Source: Spirochaetia bacterium (GTDB taxonomy: Bacteria > Spirochaetota > UBA4802 > UBA5550). From it: a stretch of 64,000 bases of DNA. The stretch spans positions 186,001 to 250,000 of the forward strand of contig VFJS01000002.1 in NCBI GenBank assembly GCA_009885955.1, written 5' to 3'. Below, piece by piece: positions 41,611-50,931 of this stretch (its first letter is position 1; each line of letters starts with the position of its first letter). Under the pieces are notes generated by a model. It did no database searches. It was not told where the DNA came from and was given only the letters and a program-made list of their open reading frames with translations. Both the position numbers and the translations under genes were made by a program.

Positions 41611-42381
41611 TTAAACCGGTTTATTGACTGGAAGCTGAAAATTTCTTAAAAGCCGGATTTCACCGAATATCCTGTGCTGTAGCACTTTTAAAGCCTGCAT
41701 TTTGGCCATTTCCAGGATTGCGAGAAAGGATGTGAGTATGTCGGATTTATTTGAAAAGGACTGGATGACATCAGAAAAAAGAATCATCTCATTTGACATG
41801 AGAAGGCCCCTGATGAATTCTATTTTATCGCTCACAAGAATTTCATTTATTACAATATCTCTTTCGTCAATTTCTGTCTGAGATTCAAGTACATTGGCGA
41901 ATGCTTTCAGGAGATCGAAGAGGGAGACTTCAAAATATTCTTCATTGTCTATTACTTCAATGGTGATGTTGCTCCTGGTGAAAATATTGGACTGATTCTC
42001 ATATTTTTCAAAAAGGTCCATCGATGCTTTCTGAAATTTTTTAAATTCAAGAAGTCTGGCAACAAGCTCCGGGGGGAGTGGCGGTACAAAATATTCATCA
42101 TCAAGATCATTTACTGGCAGAAGTGCTTTGCTTTTGTAATATAATAATTCCGATGCCATCCATGTAAATTCGATTGCGATCTTAACATTCATCGATTCCA
42201 TTAATTTGAGGTATTCTATGTATTGTGCGGTAATGCTTGATATAGAAATTTCGGTGATATCGATTTTAGATTTTTTTATAAGGTCCCATAACACATCAAG
42301 AGGCCCGTCAAAATTATCAATATGAATGCTGTATTTGTCTGCTCCTGAATGAAGTACATTTTCCTGAATATTAGGATTCAT
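41611..42381 (-). CDS. scpA: Segregation and condensation protein A
   Basis: The kleisin subunit of the SMC-ScpAB complex that compacts and separates chromosomes. It has 256 residues. The N-terminal signature FDGPLDVLWDLIKKSKIDI near residue 24 is close to the family FDGPLDLLLHLI. SSITAQYIEYLKLMESMNVKIAIEFTWMASELLYYKSKALLP is present in pieces near 45-90, and a C-terminal winged helix (about 190-245: FLAILEMAKMQALKVLQ, FGEIRL) follows. scpB is not in the adjacent position and not seen in the window, which is unusual because the two are often together. ATG 42381 has no strong Shine-Dalgarno. Confidence 0.92.
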   Translation of the reverse strand: MNPNIQENVLHSGADKYSIHIDNFDGPLDVLWDLIKKSKIDITEISISSITAQYIEYLKLMESMNVKIAIEFTWMASELLYYKSKALLPVNDLDDEYFVPPLPPELVARLLEFKKFQKASMDLFEKYENQSNIFTRSNITIEVIDNEEYFEVSLFDLLKAFANVLESQTEIDERDIVINEILVSDKIEFIRGLLMSNEMILFSDVIQSFSNKSDILTSFLAILEMAKMQALKVLQHRIFGEIRLLRNFQLPVNKPV

Positions 42382-42475: not shown

Positions 42476-42838
42476 CTAATTGGATAATGCTTTTTCTGCA
42501 GCTTTCTGTAGCCTTTCAGGCGGAAATGGTTTAACAACAAAATCTTTAACACCTAATTTTATAGCCTTTGTCAGGAGATTTTCCTGCCCGAGCGCAGTTA
42601 CCATAATTATCTTTGCCTGTGGATTTAATGTCAATATTTCCTCTGCAGCTTCAATTCCATCTTTTTCCCTCATGGTAATATCCATTGTCACAAGATCTGG
42701 TCTAAGTTTTTTATATAATTCCACTGCTTCATTCCCATTTTCTGCTTCACCAATAATTTCATGGCCGATCGGAATAAGGGCATCTTTTACAAGGGTTCTC
42801 ATAAATTTTGCATCATCAACAATTAAAATCCTAGCCAT
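42476..42838 (-). CDS. cheY: CheY-like single-domain response regulator
   Basis: A 120-residue receiver domain with no output domain. Seen: acidic pocket ILIVDDAKFMRTLV near 4-17, phospho-acceptor Asp in DLVTMDITMREKDG near 54, Thr in MVTALGQ near 83, and Lys in VVKPFPPERL near 105. Known: phosphorylated by CheA, it controls the flagellar motor in chemotaxis. Its place 235 bases downstream of cheB on the same strand supports a chemotaxis role, though it may have its own promoter. ATG 42838 has GTGGAG about seven bases upstream. Confidence 0.9.
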   Translation of the reverse strand: MARILIVDDAKFMRTLVKDALIPIGHEIIGEAENGNEAVELYKKLRPDLVTMDITMREKDGIEAAEEILTLNPQAKIIMVTALGQENLLTKAIKLGVKDFVVKPFPPERLQKAAEKALSN

Positions 42839-43072: not shown

Positions 43073-44146
43073 TCATAGATTTTCAACAATTTTTTTAGTT
43101 ATTTCTGTTAGCGGTACAACTTCATCAATTGCATTAATTTCAACAGCAACCTTGTTCATCCCAAAAACGACAGAACTATTCTCATCCTGTGCAATTGTAT
43201 GACCACCTGATTTTTTTATCCTTAATATACCTTCTGAACCGTCTTTACCCATACCAGTCATGATAACGCCAATGGAATTGCCATCACCGATTTCTGCAAT
43301 GGAATCAAATAATACATCAATAGATGGCCTGTGGCCTGATCTCTTTTCGTTCTTATTCAGAGAAATCCTCAATTCGCCCCCCCTTTTCTCTAAATACATA
43401 TGCGAATGCCCTGGGGCAAGGTAAGCATTCCCAGGTTTTACCAGGTCATTATGCTCAGCTTCCTTAACATTAAGTGCGGAATAAGAATTCAGCCTTTCTG
43501 AAAATGCCCGGGTAAACCCCTCGGGCATATGCTGGACAATAAGCACTGGGGATGGAAAATTATCCGGAAATTCCTTAAAAACATTTATTAAAGCTGCCGG
43601 TCCTCCTGTTGATGTGCCAATTCCAACAATCTTCGGATTTTTGAATTTTTTCGAAGTCATATCTTCATGAAAAATTATATTCTGTTCAGGTTTATTCACT
43701 TCTGGACTGTACCTTGGTTCTTCTCTCTTTGATATCAGAATTTTTGATTTATAAACAGATTTTACTTTCGATATCAGCAGTTCACCAATATCATCAACAG
43801 TCATTGAAAGGACTGAAGAAGGTTTAGGAATAAAATCCACGGCTCCAAGATCCAGGGCTTTGAAAGTTGCTTCAGCACCATGCTGTGTTAATACACTCAT
43901 CATTATGACAGGCTTGGGATTTGTTGCAATAATTTCCTGCAATGCTGAAAGCCCGTCAAGTATTGGCATCTCAATATCCATGGTAATCACATCGGGATTG
44001 AGTTCTTTATTCCTGTAAATAGCTGTCTTGCCATTATTGGCAGTCCCAATGACTTTTATCATTGGATCGCTTTCCAGAATATCAGTAATAATTTTTCTTA
44101 CCAGAGAAGAATCATCAACAACGAGAACTTTAATTTGATCCGACAT
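43073..44146 (-). CDS. cheB: Chemotaxis protein-glutamate methylesterase/glutaminase CheB
   Basis: A 357-residue CheB. An N-terminal receiver domain (about 1-125) has VVDDSSLVRKI, the acceptor Asp in ITMDIEMPILDG near 55-60, and KPSS. After a linker comes the C-terminal methylesterase (about 165-355): the Ser nucleophile in GTSTGGPAAL near 177, the His in QHMPEGF near 205, and the Asp in MGKDGSEG near 297. It removes methyl groups from receptors during adaptation. No cheR is seen in the window. Its start overlaps the cheA stop by 17 bases, indicating translational coupling. Confidence 0.95.
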   Translation of the reverse strand: MSDQIKVLVVDDSSLVRKIITDILESDPMIKVIGTANNGKTAIYRNKELNPDVITMDIEMPILDGLSALQEIIATNPKPVIMMSVLTQHGAEATFKALDLGAVDFIPKPSSVLSMTVDDIGELLISKVKSVYKSKILISKREEPRYSPEVNKPEQNIIFHEDMTSKKFKNPKIVGIGTSTGGPAALINVFKEFPDNFPSPVLIVQHMPEGFTRAFSERLNSYSALNVKEAEHNDLVKPGNAYLAPGHSHMYLEKRGGELRISLNKNEKRSGHRPSIDVLFDSIAEIGDGNSIGVIMTGMGKDGSEGILRIKKSGGHTIAQDENSSVVFGMNKVAVEINAIDEVVPLTEITKKIVENL

Positions 44147-47100
44147 TTGCTCTTAATCCTTCGACAATTGTTTTTAATGAATCTGAATCAGGAAAATAGA
44201 GTAGATTCCCTATAAGTTTATCATCCTGAAAAAAGAATGTCGTATCCATAATTATGGCATAATCATTCTGTATACTCTGAGTTGCCAGTATTGTATCAAT
44301 TATTGATAACAAATAATCGTGAACAATGACCGGGACATCGGGTTTTATAACCATGCCTGTCTTTTCTGCTATTACATTGATAACCGAAGATCCGATAATA
44401 TTTGTTATTTCACTTAATGCTGATTTTCCATCTTCATCAAGTTCCATTTTTTCCCTGCTTGTTGTACCATAAAGAAGATCAACCATATCAAAACCTGAAA
44501 CATCATTAAGCAGGAATAATATTGTTCCTTTAATCTCACCATGGATAGTCATCATAACACCGATATAGGATGACTCAATAGAGCCGATATATTCAGGTAT
44601 TTTTTCAATCGGTTTTATTTCGACCATCGGGATGGAAAGTTCAATTCTTTTTTTAAGAATCTGGGACATTGATTCTGCTGCATTGGTTGCTCCAATGTTG
44701 GCAATGATCTGAAATTCATTCAGGTCTTCTTTTGAAATATTTAATTTGGATTTTATATGATCACCAATATCTCCGCCCTGGAGGGTTGAACTGACCCTCT
44801 CTTTCAAATCATTCCTGAAATCACTCAGGGTATCCTTTATTTTTTTATTTATTTCAATATCGCTGAGAACTTGGGGTTTACTGCCTTCCATGGGCGGTTT
44901 TTCCGAGTGTAATAACGAATCATCATGTATATTTTTATCAGATGAGATCTGTTCAGGTTCATCAAACATTATTGCTCTGGGACCCTGCGTATAGTCAATT
45001 TCTTTAGCAACAGCATCAGGTTTTTCTTCATTTTTTTCAACATCAAAAATAATCGGTTTTGAGCTCTTAAAATTTTCACTTATATCAGCAATGGATAATT
45101 CTCCGGGATCATAGTCGCTGCTTTCCGCTAACTCATAACCTTCATTAGATTTTTTTTCACTTAACTGTCTTCTTTCTACCCGGGTCAACTTTTCCTGATC
45201 AAAGATAACCTTATTTATCATTGTGGCTATATCAAGGATGAGGCAAATACTGCCGTCGCCAAGGATTGATGCGCCTGCAAGGCCTTCAATAGTTTTATAA
45301 TTCTGTTCCAGGGATTTAATAACAATTTCAAGTTTTCCTTCTAGAAAATCTACAATAAGTCCAATTTTTCTGTTTCCATACCCTACTACCACAACAGGAA
45401 TTTTTGAATCTGTTTTTAAGCTGCTTTTTATTTTTATAAACTGATTCAATCTCAGCAGGGATAATATTTCTCCTCTTAAGTTTATCACTTCATGCCCCTC
45501 TATGGTTGTAATATCAGAGGTAGATATTTTAATAGTTTCAACCACATCTGACAGGGGTATCGCATATAGCTCTTTTTGTACGCGCACCATGATAGCAGGA
45601 ATAATTGCAAGTGTTAGCGGAAAGGTTAGTATAAACCTTGTCCCCATTCCTGGTTCAGTTTCAATAGTAACCGCTCCATTTAGTTCAGATACAATTTGTT
45701 TAACCACAGTCATACCCACCCCCCTGCCTGAAAGGTCAGTAACCTTATCAGCTGTGGAAAATCCGGGAGAAAAAATAAAATTAAATATTTCAGACGAGTC
45801 CATGTTGGCTACTGTTTCAATGTTTACAAGCCCCCTGTCTATCGCCTTTTTTTTAATCTTTTCAATATCAAGGCCTTTCCCGTCATCGCTGACTTCAACT
45901 AATATATGATTCCCGCCCTGATATGCATTAAGTGTAATTTTTGCCGTCTCCGATTTCCCCATTTCTTTTCTCATGGCTGTTGTTTCTACACCGTGGTCAA
46001 CAGCATTGCGAATCAGGTGCAAAAGGGGTTCGCCTATGGCGTCTATAACCTTTTTATCAAGCTCTGTATCCTCACCCTTTATTACAAGCTCAATCTCCTT
46101 TTTGAACTCTTTTGTCAGATCCCTGACCAGCCTCTTAAATCTGTTAAATATCTGACCTATCTGAACCATTCTTGTTTTCATAATGCCGGTTTGAAGATCC
46201 TTGGCTATTCTCGACATACCTTCCATTCTATTTTTGAATTCATTGACAATCGATTTATCTCCGGTAATTTTTCTAAGTTCTTCATAAATTCTGAAAAATC
46301 CGGAATTGGCTATTACAAGTTCGCCGACATTGTTGAGGAGCTGATCCAGTTTTTCAATAGAAACTTTCACCGTTTTTGTTGCTGCAGCCTTTTTCTTATC
46401 GGTATCAGCCCTGTCAGTCATCCTTCTTCCGAATTGAATTTCACTTATGTCATAATCATCAGATTCATCAGATTCATCAGAATGTAATGCCTTGTCTTCT
46501 GCAATTTGGACTGGTTCATAAACAATCCCGGGGAAGCTGACTATTTCGGTTGACGGCTCTGCAGTCCCAATGAACACAAGAGAATCGGCAACCTGGAGGG
46601 TGATCGCATTACCGGTTCTTGAGGTAATAATATTTATGCATTCTACCCTGTTTATCAGGTCAATGTCGCAGGCATTTTTTATAAATTCATTATTTCTGTC
46701 GGTACAGAATATAATCTTCATTTTGCTGTCGGGATCATCATCGCTTAAATCCCCCGGGGATGGTTCTGTTTTAATGACCTTCCCGATTCTGCCGAGATTC
46801 CCTAAAATTAACTGTGCTTTAACCCACTTCATCTGAGCTGTTTTATCAATAGAAATATTCAGTATGCAGCATCTGCCGCCTTCTGAAAGACGGTTAAATA
46901 TTTCATTTTTATCATTATCATTCAGATCTAACAGATGTACATTGGTTTTTATTATTCCGGGTGTTTTTTCTTTTTGCTTGACGGGTTTCGTTTCTTTCAC
47001 TGACTGTCCGGGGTTTCCAAGCCTTTGTATTTCTTCAATAATCCTGCTTAGATCATGCGTAGGCTGTTCTCCTGACGCTACAGTTTCAATGATAGAATTA

Positions 47101-47393
47101 ATAACATCAAAACATTTAAAAATTATATTAATAATTTCTGGCGTAACTCTGAGCATTCCATCTCTGATTCCCTGAAGCAGATTTTCCATTTTATGCGCAA
47201 GGTTACTCAGTTCATTTAAGCCGACGAATCCTGCGGAACTTTTTAGAGAATGCGCAGTTCTGAAAATATCGTTAATTATTTCAATATTATTCGGATCTTT
47301 TTCCAGTTTGAGCAGGTTACTGTTAAGTTCCTGGAGCTGTTCATCAGCCTCTTCAAGAAATATATCCTGGTATTCACCTAACGAAAATGACAT
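44130..47393 (-). CDS. cheA: Chemotaxis histidine kinase CheA fused to a C-terminal CheC-like phosphatase domain
   Basis: A 1087-residue protein, far longer than ordinary CheA (about 650-700). Domains: HPt (1-110, phospho-His 48 in AHSLKSSAG); a possible P2 region (150-260); P3 dimerisation (340-430); ATPase (430-595, HLIRNAVDHG near 459, DDGKGLD near 503, GRGVGM near 556); CheW-like P5 (597-730); a charged linker (735-890); and a CheC-like domain (892-1085). CheC phosphatase sites read [D/S]xxxExxN plus a later Pro. The second copy is intact (S991, E995, N998, P1021). The first keeps N899 and P922 but has Ile at 896 and Asn at 892. Kinase and response-regulator phosphatase are thus one chain. 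It overlaps cheB by 17 bases and lies 36 bases after cheW. Confidence 0.93.
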   Translation of the reverse strand: MSFSLGEYQDIFLEEADEQLQELNSNLLKLEKDPNNIEIINDIFRTAHSLKSSAGFVGLNELSNLAHKMENLLQGIRDGMLRVTPEIINIIFKCFDVINSIIETVASGEQPTHDLSRIIEEIQRLGNPGQSVKETKPVKQKEKTPGIIKTNVHLLDLNDNDKNEIFNRLSEGGRCCILNISIDKTAQMKWVKAQLILGNLGRIGKVIKTEPSPGDLSDDDPDSKMKIIFCTDRNNEFIKNACDIDLINRVECINIITSRTGNAITLQVADSLVFIGTAEPSTEIVSFPGIVYEPVQIAEDKALHSDESDESDDYDISEIQFGRRMTDRADTDKKKAAATKTVKVSIEKLDQLLNNVGELVIANSGFFRIYEELRKITGDKSIVNEFKNRMEGMSRIAKDLQTGIMKTRMVQIGQIFNRFKRLVRDLTKEFKKEIELVIKGEDTELDKKVIDAIGEPLLHLIRNAVDHGVETTAMRKEMGKSETAKITLNAYQGGNHILVEVSDDGKGLDIEKIKKKAIDRGLVNIETVANMDSSEIFNFIFSPGFSTADKVTDLSGRGVGMTVVKQIVSELNGAVTIETEPGMGTRFILTFPLTLAIIPAIMVRVQKELYAIPLSDVVETIKISTSDITTIEGHEVINLRGEILSLLRLNQFIKIKSSLKTDSKIPVVVVGYGNRKIGLIVDFLEGKLEIVIKSLEQNYKTIEGLAGASILGDGSICLILDIATMINKVIFDQEKLTRVERRQLSEKKSNEGYELAESSDYDPGELSIADISENFKSSKPIIFDVEKNEEKPDAVAKEIDYTQGPRAIMFDEPEQISSDKNIHDDSLLHSEKPPMEGSKPQVLSDIEINKKIKDTLSDFRNDLKERVSSTLQGGDIGDHIKSKLNISKEDLNEFQIIANIGATNAAESMSQILKKRIELSIPMVEIKPIEKIPEYIGSIESSYIGVMMTIHGEIKGTILFLLNDVSGFDMVDLLYGTTSREKMELDEDGKSALSEITNIIGSSVINVIAEKTGMVIKPDVPVIVHDYLLSIIDTILATQSIQNDYAIIMDTTFFFQDDKLIGNLLYFPDSDSLKTIVEGLRANVGSN

Positions 47394-47429: not shown

Positions 47430-47993
47430 TCAACCTGCGCTATCCATACGGCTCATCTCTTCTTCCAGGAAAATTATATTTGCAATATTCAGAATTATAA
47501 TCAACCTGTCTTTGAGTCTTCCAATGCCGCTGATAAATTCCTCAGATACTCCCTCGATAAGCTCTGAAGGAGTATCAACATTGACTTTTGGGATTCTGAC
47601 AACCTGATAGACATTATCCACCATCAAGCCTATTTTTTTCTCTTCATTCTGAAGCACTATAATTCTGGTTAAATCATCAATCTTCCCGTCAGGGAAACCA
47701 AAACGTCTTCTTGCATCCACCACAGGAATGACATTCCCCCTGAGGTTGATAACGCCTTTTATAAAATTAGGTGTATTGGGCAGCCTGGTAATGTCAGGAA
47801 TTTTCAGAATTTCGTGAACCACAAGAATATCTACACCATATTCAACATCATCTATCAAAAAGCTGACCAGCTGTAATATGTCATTATCAGTATAAGGCTC
47901 TTCTTCAATAGTCTCATTTTTTTCTAATTCCAGGTCATGATTAGTGTATCCCTTTGAACCCTTTTGTTTGTTCATTAACCTGTTTATATCCAT
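47430..47993 (-). CDS. cheW: Chemotaxis coupling protein CheW
   Basis: A 187-residue CheW linking receptors to CheA. The CheW/SH3-like domain spans about 40-180: LVSFLIDDVEYGVDILVVHEIL near 41, ITRLPNTPNFIKGVINLRGNVIPVVDARRRFG near 74-105 (the conserved NLRG and VVD), and ISGIGRLKDRLIIILNI near 155. The first 40 residues are a polar extension (KNETIEEEPYTDND). ATG 47993 is preceded by AGGA. It heads the cheW-cheA-cheB run. An 11-bp perfect inverted repeat lies 54-82 bases upstream. Confidence 0.94.
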   Translation of the reverse strand: MDINRLMNKQKGSKGYTNHDLELEKNETIEEEPYTDNDILQLVSFLIDDVEYGVDILVVHEILKIPDITRLPNTPNFIKGVINLRGNVIPVVDARRRFGFPDGKIDDLTRIIVLQNEEKKIGLMVDNVYQVVRIPKVNVDTPSELIEGVSEEFISGIGRLKDRLIIILNIANIIFLEEEMSRMDSAG

Positions 47994-48367: not shown

Positions 48368-50365
48368 CTATTTTTTTAAGACAGTAATCCCTTTTGTATC
48401 TGAAATAAAATAAACACTATTTTTATTTACAGTAATATTTTTTGATACTATATTGGGAATTACTACAGACCAGCTGATTCCCCCATTTTTTTTATCAATA
48501 ATAAACATGGTCCTGTCAGTAGCTATTATAAGATTTTTTTCATCAAAAACTGGTTTTTTTGAAATAGCATTTCCCAGATCGATTTTCCATATAAGAAGCC
48601 CGTTAGTATTCAATTTTGTAATTTTGCCATCTGTATTGAAGATATAGACATGCTCATCATAGGTATAAATATTATAAATTGATTTGACTGCAATATTAAA
48701 CCTCCATTGGACTTCATCCCTTTGAGGATTGTAACAATAGAGGACGCCATACAGAGAGGCGGCAAAAATATGATTACCTGATAATGTCATTGAAATTATG
48801 GGTGAATTAAATTTATGTTTTATGATTTTAATGCCGTTTGTTTTATCCAGGCCGATGATAATCCCGTTTTTAATCGATACAAATACCATGTCCTTTCCCG
48901 GGAGAGGGGGGGATGAAATTTCATTACTCAGAGTTGATTTCCAGAGCATCTCGCCGTTAATTCCAATTTTGTATAATGAACCGTTAGCCGTTGCTGCATA
49001 TACGGTATTTCCTTCTTTAATTAACCAGATATGACCATTTGGCGCACCTTCAATCCCTCTTCCCCAGAGAATTCTGCCGGTCATGGCATCAATGCAGTAC
49101 AGCATCTGTTCAGAATTTGTAAGTAATATTTTTTTACCGATAATGACTGGACCAGTTGTCAGCCTGCCGGTAATTTTGTTTGACCATTTCAACTTTGATA
49201 AATCGGTAGCTTCAATAAGGCCGAATTCAGAAATATTGATAAGTAAGTTAAGTTCTGGAATAAATTCTATAAAAGAGGCTCTTACCCTGTTTTTCCAGTC
49301 ATTGAATAATGGATCAGGCATCTCAAGGGTTGAAGATGCTGTAAAACTTTTTGCCACAAGGGATAGGTAGGGCCTGCTGCTTTCATCTTTTTTTTGGGCA
49401 GTCTTGATAAAATCGAGAATTTCATTTTTCATAAGAAAATTGCTGTCGGATATTACCACTATGCCCGGCTGTTTGAGTTCTTTCACATGTTCATTGAAAT
49501 TATGTATATTGATGCTATGTAAAGTCTTTTCATCAAGGGGGATTCTGTATGCGTTATTTTTTTCAATGATAACTGCATTTTCACTGAAATACATATCCAG
49601 TTTATTTTTCAGCATTTTATCTTTAATGCTGATTTCATCGGGGATGGTTCTTTTAACCTGTATTTTCCCGTCATATACCTCAAAAAGAGTCTCCTTCTTA
49701 TCATTCAGATTTATGCCGAAAACAGTGCCGCGGACAGTTGCCATGGAAGATGGAGTTTTTATCTCTATACTGTCATTGATAGCAAGCTTTTTAATTATCA
49801 GGAGCATCCCGCCCCTTGTAATAGATAAGTTTAATACTTTCCCATCACTGCTATCAATGATACGGCTGATACTAACGCTGCTTCCCTCAATGATTTTGAT
49901 GATAGAATTATTGCCAACAGAAAATTGTATATTAGATTTTTCATCAGTATTGATAATATCCCCCTGGGACAGACTGCTGCCGTTATCCGGATTGAATTGT
50001 TTGTCATTTCTGAAAACAGAGACTCTTCCAGTTAAATTTTCAATGATTCCTTTCCCGGTATTGCCGGGTTGTTGAAAATTTTTCAATGTCACTGATATCA
50101 TTATTAGTAGAATTGCAAAAGAGGGTATCATTAATCCAAAGGGGCTCAATTTAAATTTCCACCAGGCAATCCTTTTATTCAGAGCGGTTACGGTTAATTC
50201 CTTTCTAAACCTTACAAGTTCCTCTTCAGGGGAGAAATCTTTTTCGTCAAAATGAAGTTCTGATCTGTCAAACATAAGGTGCAGTTTGCTGCTGCGGGTA
50301 TGACGGAACCTTTTTTTGGCTAGTAAATTATCAATGATAGCAAGTAATTCGGATTTGGGATTCAT
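48368..50365 (-). CDS. Membrane FecR-domain protein with PQQ-type beta-propeller; probable anti-sigma partner
   Basis: A 665-residue single-pass membrane protein. Residues 1-70 are a cytoplasmic helical region. A membrane segment (about 74-94) is followed by a FecR domain (about 105-235: GRVSVFRN, LSQGDIINTDEKSNIQFSV, MATVRGTVFGI). The C-terminal half (about 365-665) is a propeller of PQQ-type blades (TGPVIIGKKILLTNSEQMLYCIDAMTG, AATANGSLYKI, FVSIKNGIIIGLDKTNG). It starts ATGA-overlapped with the ECF sigma gene, which is the classic position of an anti-sigma factor. Inference: the cytoplasmic segment holds the sigma factor and the periplasmic domains sense ligands or envelope state. Lacks a recognisable zinc anti-sigma motif. 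Confidence 0.85.
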   Translation of the reverse strand: MNPKSELLAIIDNLLAKKRFRHTRSSKLHLMFDRSELHFDEKDFSPEEELVRFRKELTVTALNKRIAWWKFKLSPFGLMIPSFAILLIMISVTLKNFQQPGNTGKGIIENLTGRVSVFRNDKQFNPDNGSSLSQGDIINTDEKSNIQFSVGNNSIIKIIEGSSVSISRIIDSSDGKVLNLSITRGGMLLIIKKLAINDSIEIKTPSSMATVRGTVFGINLNDKKETLFEVYDGKIQVKRTIPDEISIKDKMLKNKLDMYFSENAVIIEKNNAYRIPLDEKTLHSINIHNFNEHVKELKQPGIVVISDSNFLMKNEILDFIKTAQKKDESSRPYLSLVAKSFTASSTLEMPDPLFNDWKNRVRASFIEFIPELNLLINISEFGLIEATDLSKLKWSNKITGRLTTGPVIIGKKILLTNSEQMLYCIDAMTGRILWGRGIEGAPNGHIWLIKEGNTVYAATANGSLYKIGINGEMLWKSTLSNEISSPPLPGKDMVFVSIKNGIIIGLDKTNGIKIIKHKFNSPIISMTLSGNHIFAASLYGVLYCYNPQRDEVQWRFNIAVKSIYNIYTYDEHVYIFNTDGKITKLNTNGLLIWKIDLGNAISKKPVFDEKNLIIATDRTMFIIDKKNGGISWSVVIPNIVSKNITVNKNSVYFISDTKGITVLKK

Positions 50366-50931
50366 ATAATGCTCTTATCCTTCAAATGCTGAACGATAAT
50401 TTGAATGGACTTTTTCATTCTCCATTTAGCAGTTCTCTCTGAGCAATTCAGTATATCTGCTATTTCCTGATACTTCATTTTTTGATCAAAACGCAACACA
50501 AATACATCCTTAAATTTAATACCGAGTGTTTCTATAGCCCTGTTAAATTCTTTTATATCCATCTCCTTTATAATTTGTTCTTCAGGAGTATCTATCGTGT
50601 TTTCAATATCTTTGACTCTGAATTTTTCTCTATCAATTATTGCATCAAATTGTTTGTTTTTTTTAATATAATTTTTACTGCAGTTTATAGCTATTTGATA
50701 TATCCAAGATGAAAATGTCATATGGATGTTAAATTTATCAATATGTCTGTAAACCCTTATGAAAACCTCTTGAAAAATATCTTCTGCGCTTTCCATGTCG
50801 CCAATATAAAAATATATCAGCCTTTTTATCCGGACCGCGTATCTTAAAAATAATTCATCAAAAGCCCTTTCCTTGCCTGCTTTATAATGAACTACAAGAT
50901 CTTCATCCTTTGATGATTTTATATCATCCAT
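50362..50931 (-). CDS. ECF-type RNA polymerase sigma factor
   Basis: A 189-residue ECF sigma factor. Region 2 (about 15-95) has DELFLRYAVRIKRLIYFYIGDMESAEDIFQEVFIRVYRHIDKF, and the core-binding MTFSSWIYQIAINCSKNYIKK follows. Region 4 (about 130-185) has a helix-turn-helix, KYQEIADILNCSERTAKWRMKKSIQ. It lacks regions 1.1 and 3, as ECF factors do. It overlaps the FecR-PQQ gene by four bases (ATGA), so the two are co-regulated. It likely directs a small envelope-response regulon and possibly its own operon. No Shine-Dalgarno is obvious at ATG 50931. Confidence 0.93.
   Translation of the reverse strand: MDDIKSSKDEDLVVHYKAGKERAFDELFLRYAVRIKRLIYFYIGDMESAEDIFQEVFIRVYRHIDKFNIHMTFSSWIYQIAINCSKNYIKKNKQFDAIIDREKFRVKDIENTIDTPEEQIIKEMDIKEFNRAIETLGIKFKDVFVLRFDQKMKYQEIADILNCSERTAKWRMKKSIQIIVQHLKDKSII

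Follow-up and report, generated by a model that had tools for sequence, protein, structure and literature searches.

A spirochaete CheA kinase with a C-terminal CheC domain that retains one complete active site

Results

Gene cluster and domain architecture

We analysed a 64,000-nucleotide stretch of spirochaete DNA (hereafter, the window), in which one uninterrupted frame of 1087 codons, cheA::cheC, encodes a CheA kinase that continues into a CheC domain (Table 1). All five CheA Pfam domains (P1–P5) were matched above cut-off and the AHSLKSSA motif is present, which identifies the protein as a CheA histidine kinase. The region singled out in the initial annotation, 44133-44720, corresponds to residues 892–1087. 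The first 17 bases of cheB lie within the 3' end of cheA::cheC, and cheA contains an AAGGAT that resembles a ribosome-binding site. The window's class and groups f11 and f34 share the conserved gene order cheW-cheA::cheC-cheB-cheY-scpA. Across the fused relatives of groups f1–7, f11 and f34, the neighbouring CheY is unusually conserved (76–92% identity) relative to CheB (41–72%) and CheW (34–71%); the kinase and the CheC domain probably both act on the CheY of the operon.

Table 1 Features of the cheA::cheC locus and its surroundings (positions in the window).
Feature	Position	Strand	Evidence or remark
scpA	41611..42381		Chromosome segregation; follows cheY in the window's class, f11 and f34
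cheY	42476..42838	-	Pfam Response_reg 3.3e-28; conserved gene order
cheB	43073..44146	-	Pfam CheB 3.5e-66
cheA::cheC	44130..47393	-	1087-aa CheA kinase with C-terminal CheC domain; relatives share the architecture
CheC domain, residues 885-1079	44157..44741	-	Pfam, NCBIfam, solved relatives, AlphaFold/Foldseek
Site 2 (S991, E995, N998, P1021)	44331..44423	-	Complete; E995/N998/P1021 invariant in 57/57 fused sequences and 3 more
Site 1 (N892, I896, N899, P922)	44628..44720	-	Lacks the glutamate; predicted dead
Charged tether from CheW-like to CheC domain, residues 728-884	44742..45212	-	Length 23-490 aa among fused relatives
Helix 5' of the CheC domain, residues ~852-870	44784..44840	-	Alignments and model; pLDDT there low (52-60)
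P5 CheW-like domain, residues 601-727	45213..45593	-	Pfam CheW 2.8e-29
P4 ATPase/kinase domain, residues 456-594	45612..46028	-	Pfam HATPase_c 9.6e-20
P3 dimerisation domain, residues 340-407	46173..46376	-	Pfam H-kinase_dim 6.5e-18
P2 response-regulator-binding domain, residues 179-252	46638..46859	-	Pfam P2 1.3e-10
P1/Hpt phosphotransfer domain, residues 8-97	47103..47372	-	Pfam Hpt 1.5e-17; AHSLKSSA motif, H48
cheW	47430..47993	-	Upstream, same putative operon; Pfam CheW 4.3e-36; conserved order
FecR/PQQ-propeller protein (665 aa) and sigma-70-family factor	48368..50931		Upstream of cheW; recur in several relatives

The charged linker between the CheW-like and CheC domains had been put at about 155 residues, and its length was close to that (~157 residues, from the CheW end at 727 to the CheC start at 885), but its last ~30 residues (from 852) include a helix that is conserved across the window's class (consensus VKEALxxFRxELKExV) and has no obvious counterpart in T. 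maritima CheC. We also considered whether an internal translation start could release a free CheC domain, in the manner of CheA-short; the linker holds only ATG809, ATG835 and TTG863, none is preceded by an obvious ribosome-binding site, and relatives do not conserve either ATG; this candidate was set aside.

The tail has the fold of CheC

Profile searches of the tail returned the CheC matches that the initial annotation had anticipated. Pfam CheC matched in two stretches (1.7e-10 on the whole protein, 4.7e-12 on the tail alone), and NCBIfam CheC_Thtogales, the model for CheY-P phosphatase CheC, matched residues 885–1079 at 7.5e-35, its score of 120.7 bits lying under a curated cut-off of 250 bits that was set for Thermotogales. 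Pfam CheX and FliM matched the protein weakly. The nearest solved structures by sequence were T. maritima CheC 1xkr and 2f9z (1.4e-18), with FliY far behind (0.0039). An AlphaFold model built from 11 relatives (pLDDT 77.6, pTM 0.73) consisted of the two pseudo-symmetric halves of the CheC fold, and its best Foldseek match was again 1xkr (E 2.5e-16, TM 0.83 by target length), followed by CheX and FliM structures at E ~1e-8. The tail is a genuine CheC fold.

Assignment to CheX was rejected, as the CheC profile scores better (1.7e-10 vs 3.4e-5 for CheX) and the domain belongs to a 1087-aa protein rather than a standalone one of ~150–170 aa; assignment to FliY was rejected as the protein has no Pfam FliN match. 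Profiles, fold and relatives thus agree with the earlier claim that a kinase and a CheC-type domain, by its sequence a candidate phosphatase, share one polypeptide.

One active site is invariant and the other is broken

Reading of the translation gave the same residues for both sites as had been proposed, with the x3, x2 and x22 spacings exact in each: S991-E995-N998-P1021 forms one complete [D/S]-x3-E-x2-N-x22-P site, and N892, I896, N899 and P922 occupy the other, so that the second complete site of standalone CheC is lacking. In CheC, CheX and FliY the asparagine and the acidic residue are both required, and insertion of the acidic residue is needed for wild-type activity (PMC3035606); site 1 is therefore predicted to be inactive, since its glutamate is missing. 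One site can suffice, because CheX is active without two.

We then aligned 57 fused domains with 11 standalone CheCs over 235 columns. E995, N998 and P1021 were the only 3 of the 235 columns that never varied among the 57 fused sequences, against a mean column conservation of 39% over the fused set. The search profile itself favours the motif and could bias this measure; the CheAs of three genomes of group f22 (labelled as the same phylum as the window and a different class) had no profile match at threshold, yet in all three the tail is present and retains E, N and P ('PLLEITNILGSAYTNTLTFLTEKSVEPATP'). The conservation of site 2 is therefore not only a search bias. Across these 60 sequences, D1026 and other positions vary freely outside the window's class, unlike the catalytic glutamate and asparagine.

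Site 1 behaved differently: glutamate and asparagine occurred together in 0 of 57 fused domains vs 11 of 11 standalone CheCs (Fisher p 6.5e-13, a value that is descriptive only, because related sequences are not independent). In each of 14 sequences, the window's among them, I, L or V stands in place of the site-1 glutamate, N899 and P922 are present, and site 2 is retained over whatever part of it the contig covers. The "eroded" first site noted initially is thus real, but it is no quirk of this copy, site 1 being broken in every fused CheA examined.

The fusion is widespread in Spirochaetota

A contig search for relatives returned 13 loci, all from Spirochaetes or Spirochaetota MAGs by title, bar one "uncultured bacterium". 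The tblastn match spanned the whole tail in 11 of them; in L010 it reached residue 1001, at the contig end, and in L015 it stopped at residue 744, yet the domain is present on reading. We next ran the tail profile over 393 genomes of Spirochaetota, the searched phylum. The window's class is represented in this sample by a single order, the window's own, with 46 genomes; the profile scored E < 1e-60 in 44 of them, and in 41 of the 46 the fusion lies in one uninterrupted frame of 886–1194 aa. Lower-scoring fused CheAs were found in f9, f10, f11, f19, f22, f27, f28, f29, f34, f38, f41 and f46. In total, 19 family-level groups hold a fused CheA, the f10 case being a fragment.

The refuting alternative had been that an assembly or frame artefact joins two separate genes. 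A related MAG (L119) does have the tail split over 861-, 310- and 193-aa frames, which may be a sequencing error or a broken gene; set against this are the open frames throughout the class and the fusion shared by the 19 groups, and because dozens of independent assemblies keep the frame open, we regard an artefact as excluded.

Standalone CheCs of ~200–350 aa also occur in the phylum. Those at L114 and L116 (321–351 aa) have N-terminal extensions, and the CheA next to each is short (642 and 599 aa), unfused and of a distant type. Where spirochaete cheA is unfused, a CheX-type gene often lies just downstream, so a phosphatase gene beside cheA is common in Spirochaetota. Two CheAs of group f41 (L090, L091) are 1351–1362 aa long, with ~470–490 residues between the CheW and CheC domains.

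Origin of the fusion and loss of site 1

A tree of CheA cores (69 in all, 46 of them fused) grouped every fused core with two unfused paralogues, from f27 and f29, in one clade (support 97/93); the genomes of both paralogues also hold a fused copy, and CheAs from other sampled spirochaete groups fall outside the clade. A constraint holding the two paralogues outside was rejected (p-AU 8.8e-5), and for this reason one fusion followed by two losses of the tail is the simplest history. The CheC-domain tree is compatible with a single origin but unsupported (77/0). These results are evidence for a single old origin of the fusion, and independent fusions are disfavoured.

The residue lost from site 1 differs among lineages. 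In the window's class, f11 and f34, N899 is kept and the glutamate is lost; in f19, f28 and some f22 members, the glutamate is kept and the asparagine is lost. If lost residues were never regained, at least six separate losses of site 1 are needed, a count to be read only as "more than once", because it depends on how a divergent helix is aligned and on long branches. It is conceivable, though doubtful, that tethering makes a second site harmful or unusable, and that after one old fusion the descendant lineages independently disabled site 1 by these different routes, each leaving exactly one perfect site per kinase subunit. If so, selection would act on the amount of phosphatase at the array, and the dead site may have taken on another use, for example docking CheD, P1 or P2.

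Discussion

Proposed function and alternatives

We propose that cheA::cheC probably encodes a complete CheA kinase and a one-site CheY-P phosphatase, tethered at the receptor array and with the operon's CheY as its substrate. The proposal draws together the CheC fold, the intact site 2, the broken sequence of site 1, the gene cluster with cheY and the evidence for a single old origin. CheA at the array would phosphorylate CheY via P1 and P2, and the tethered CheC domain would bind the resulting CheY-P; as in CheX, N998 would be inserted to orient the attacking water and E995 to form a salt bridge with the receiver lysine, and CheY-P would be hydrolysed beside its site of production. The kinase:phosphatase ratio would be fixed at 1:1 and the signal ended fast at the array, with a predicted effect on behaviour. 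Since the linker ranges from 23 to ~490 residues and is variable in sequence, the connection appears to be a flexible tether and not a rigid joint. The same genome encodes two further CheAs without the tail, and also two standalone CheX-like proteins with ExxN sites, so that the fused domain is not the sole candidate phosphatase.

Bulk phosphatase activity could come from these CheX proteins, which leaves room for a reading in which the fused domain is mainly a sensor: CheY-P bound at site 2 would alter the docking of CheD, or of CheA, and feed back on receptor adaptation with little catalysis. B. subtilis CheC, a weak phosphatase whose main role is through CheD, is the proposed precedent, and the fold comes nearest that of T. 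maritima CheC, also as found in the CheC–CheD complex 2f9z. The genome has four CheD matches, and no standalone two-site CheC was found in it. All the CheD genes, however, lie outside the cheA::cheC gene cluster, and the invariance of the catalytic glutamate and asparagine in 60 sequences, against free variation elsewhere (D1026, for example), speaks for catalysis; we consider a sensor with little catalysis unlikely. Far less probable still is a non-catalytic module that serves structure or docking, like FliM, which has the same fold and has lost both sites. The weak FliM profile match and the loss of site 1 everywhere would fit such a module, but FliM falls far below CheC in both sequence and fold scores, and no feature of the domain is better conserved than site 2. 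A tethered, one-site phosphatase remains our preferred interpretation.

Comparison with known systems

The initial annotation knew of no well-described system built in this way, a view that does not stand. Fusions of CheC/CheX to F1-class CheA have been reported in Leptospirae, with a dual kinase/phosphatase role suggested (PMC10782961, 2023); there, too, a domain of the CheC/CheX clan sits on the C-terminus of CheA. That report is a short paragraph drawn from RefSeq genomes held in MiST and carries no active-site analysis. The Leptospirae fusions probably belong to the same clade as that of the window; f22, f38, f41 and f46 may represent the Leptospirae class, whereas the window seems to come from a different class of Spirochaetota, itself uncultured. 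Rhodobacter sphaeroides CheA3 is also bifunctional, phosphorylating and dephosphorylating its CheY (PMC2924250), but it is built differently. CheA3 is phosphorylated by its partner CheA4 and not by itself, whereas the CheA described here has both P3 and P4 and is a whole kinase. The phosphatase part of CheA3 is, to our knowledge, not CheC-like.

Standalone relatives offer further comparisons. The CheCs of T. maritima and B. subtilis share the fold of two pseudo-symmetric halves and the ExxN-x22-P motif seen here in site 2, but they are standalone proteins with two complete sites, whereas the window's domain is fused and its site 1 lacks the glutamate. CheX of Borrelia burgdorferi and T. maritima has one E/N site per subunit, as here, and in other spirochaetes CheX genes lie close to cheA; CheX is smaller and standalone, and in profile and fold the window's domain is nearer CheC. 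In E. coli, CheZ recruited to CheA-short likewise places a phosphatase at the kinase array, but non-covalently and with an unrelated phosphatase fold.

The architecture itself is therefore already known (PMC10782961); what is new is its spread beyond that report, the evidence for a single origin, and the finding that site 1 is consistently lost whereas site 2 is strictly kept. The arrangement described briefly for Leptospirae is older and wider than reported there. In chemotaxis, ending the signal needs a phosphatase, and the position of the phosphatase shapes the CheY-P gradient; a covalent kinase–phosphatase is thus a natural test of array-localised signal termination, and a fusion that persists across much of a phylum with one site kept supplies ready variants for asking why one site suffices.
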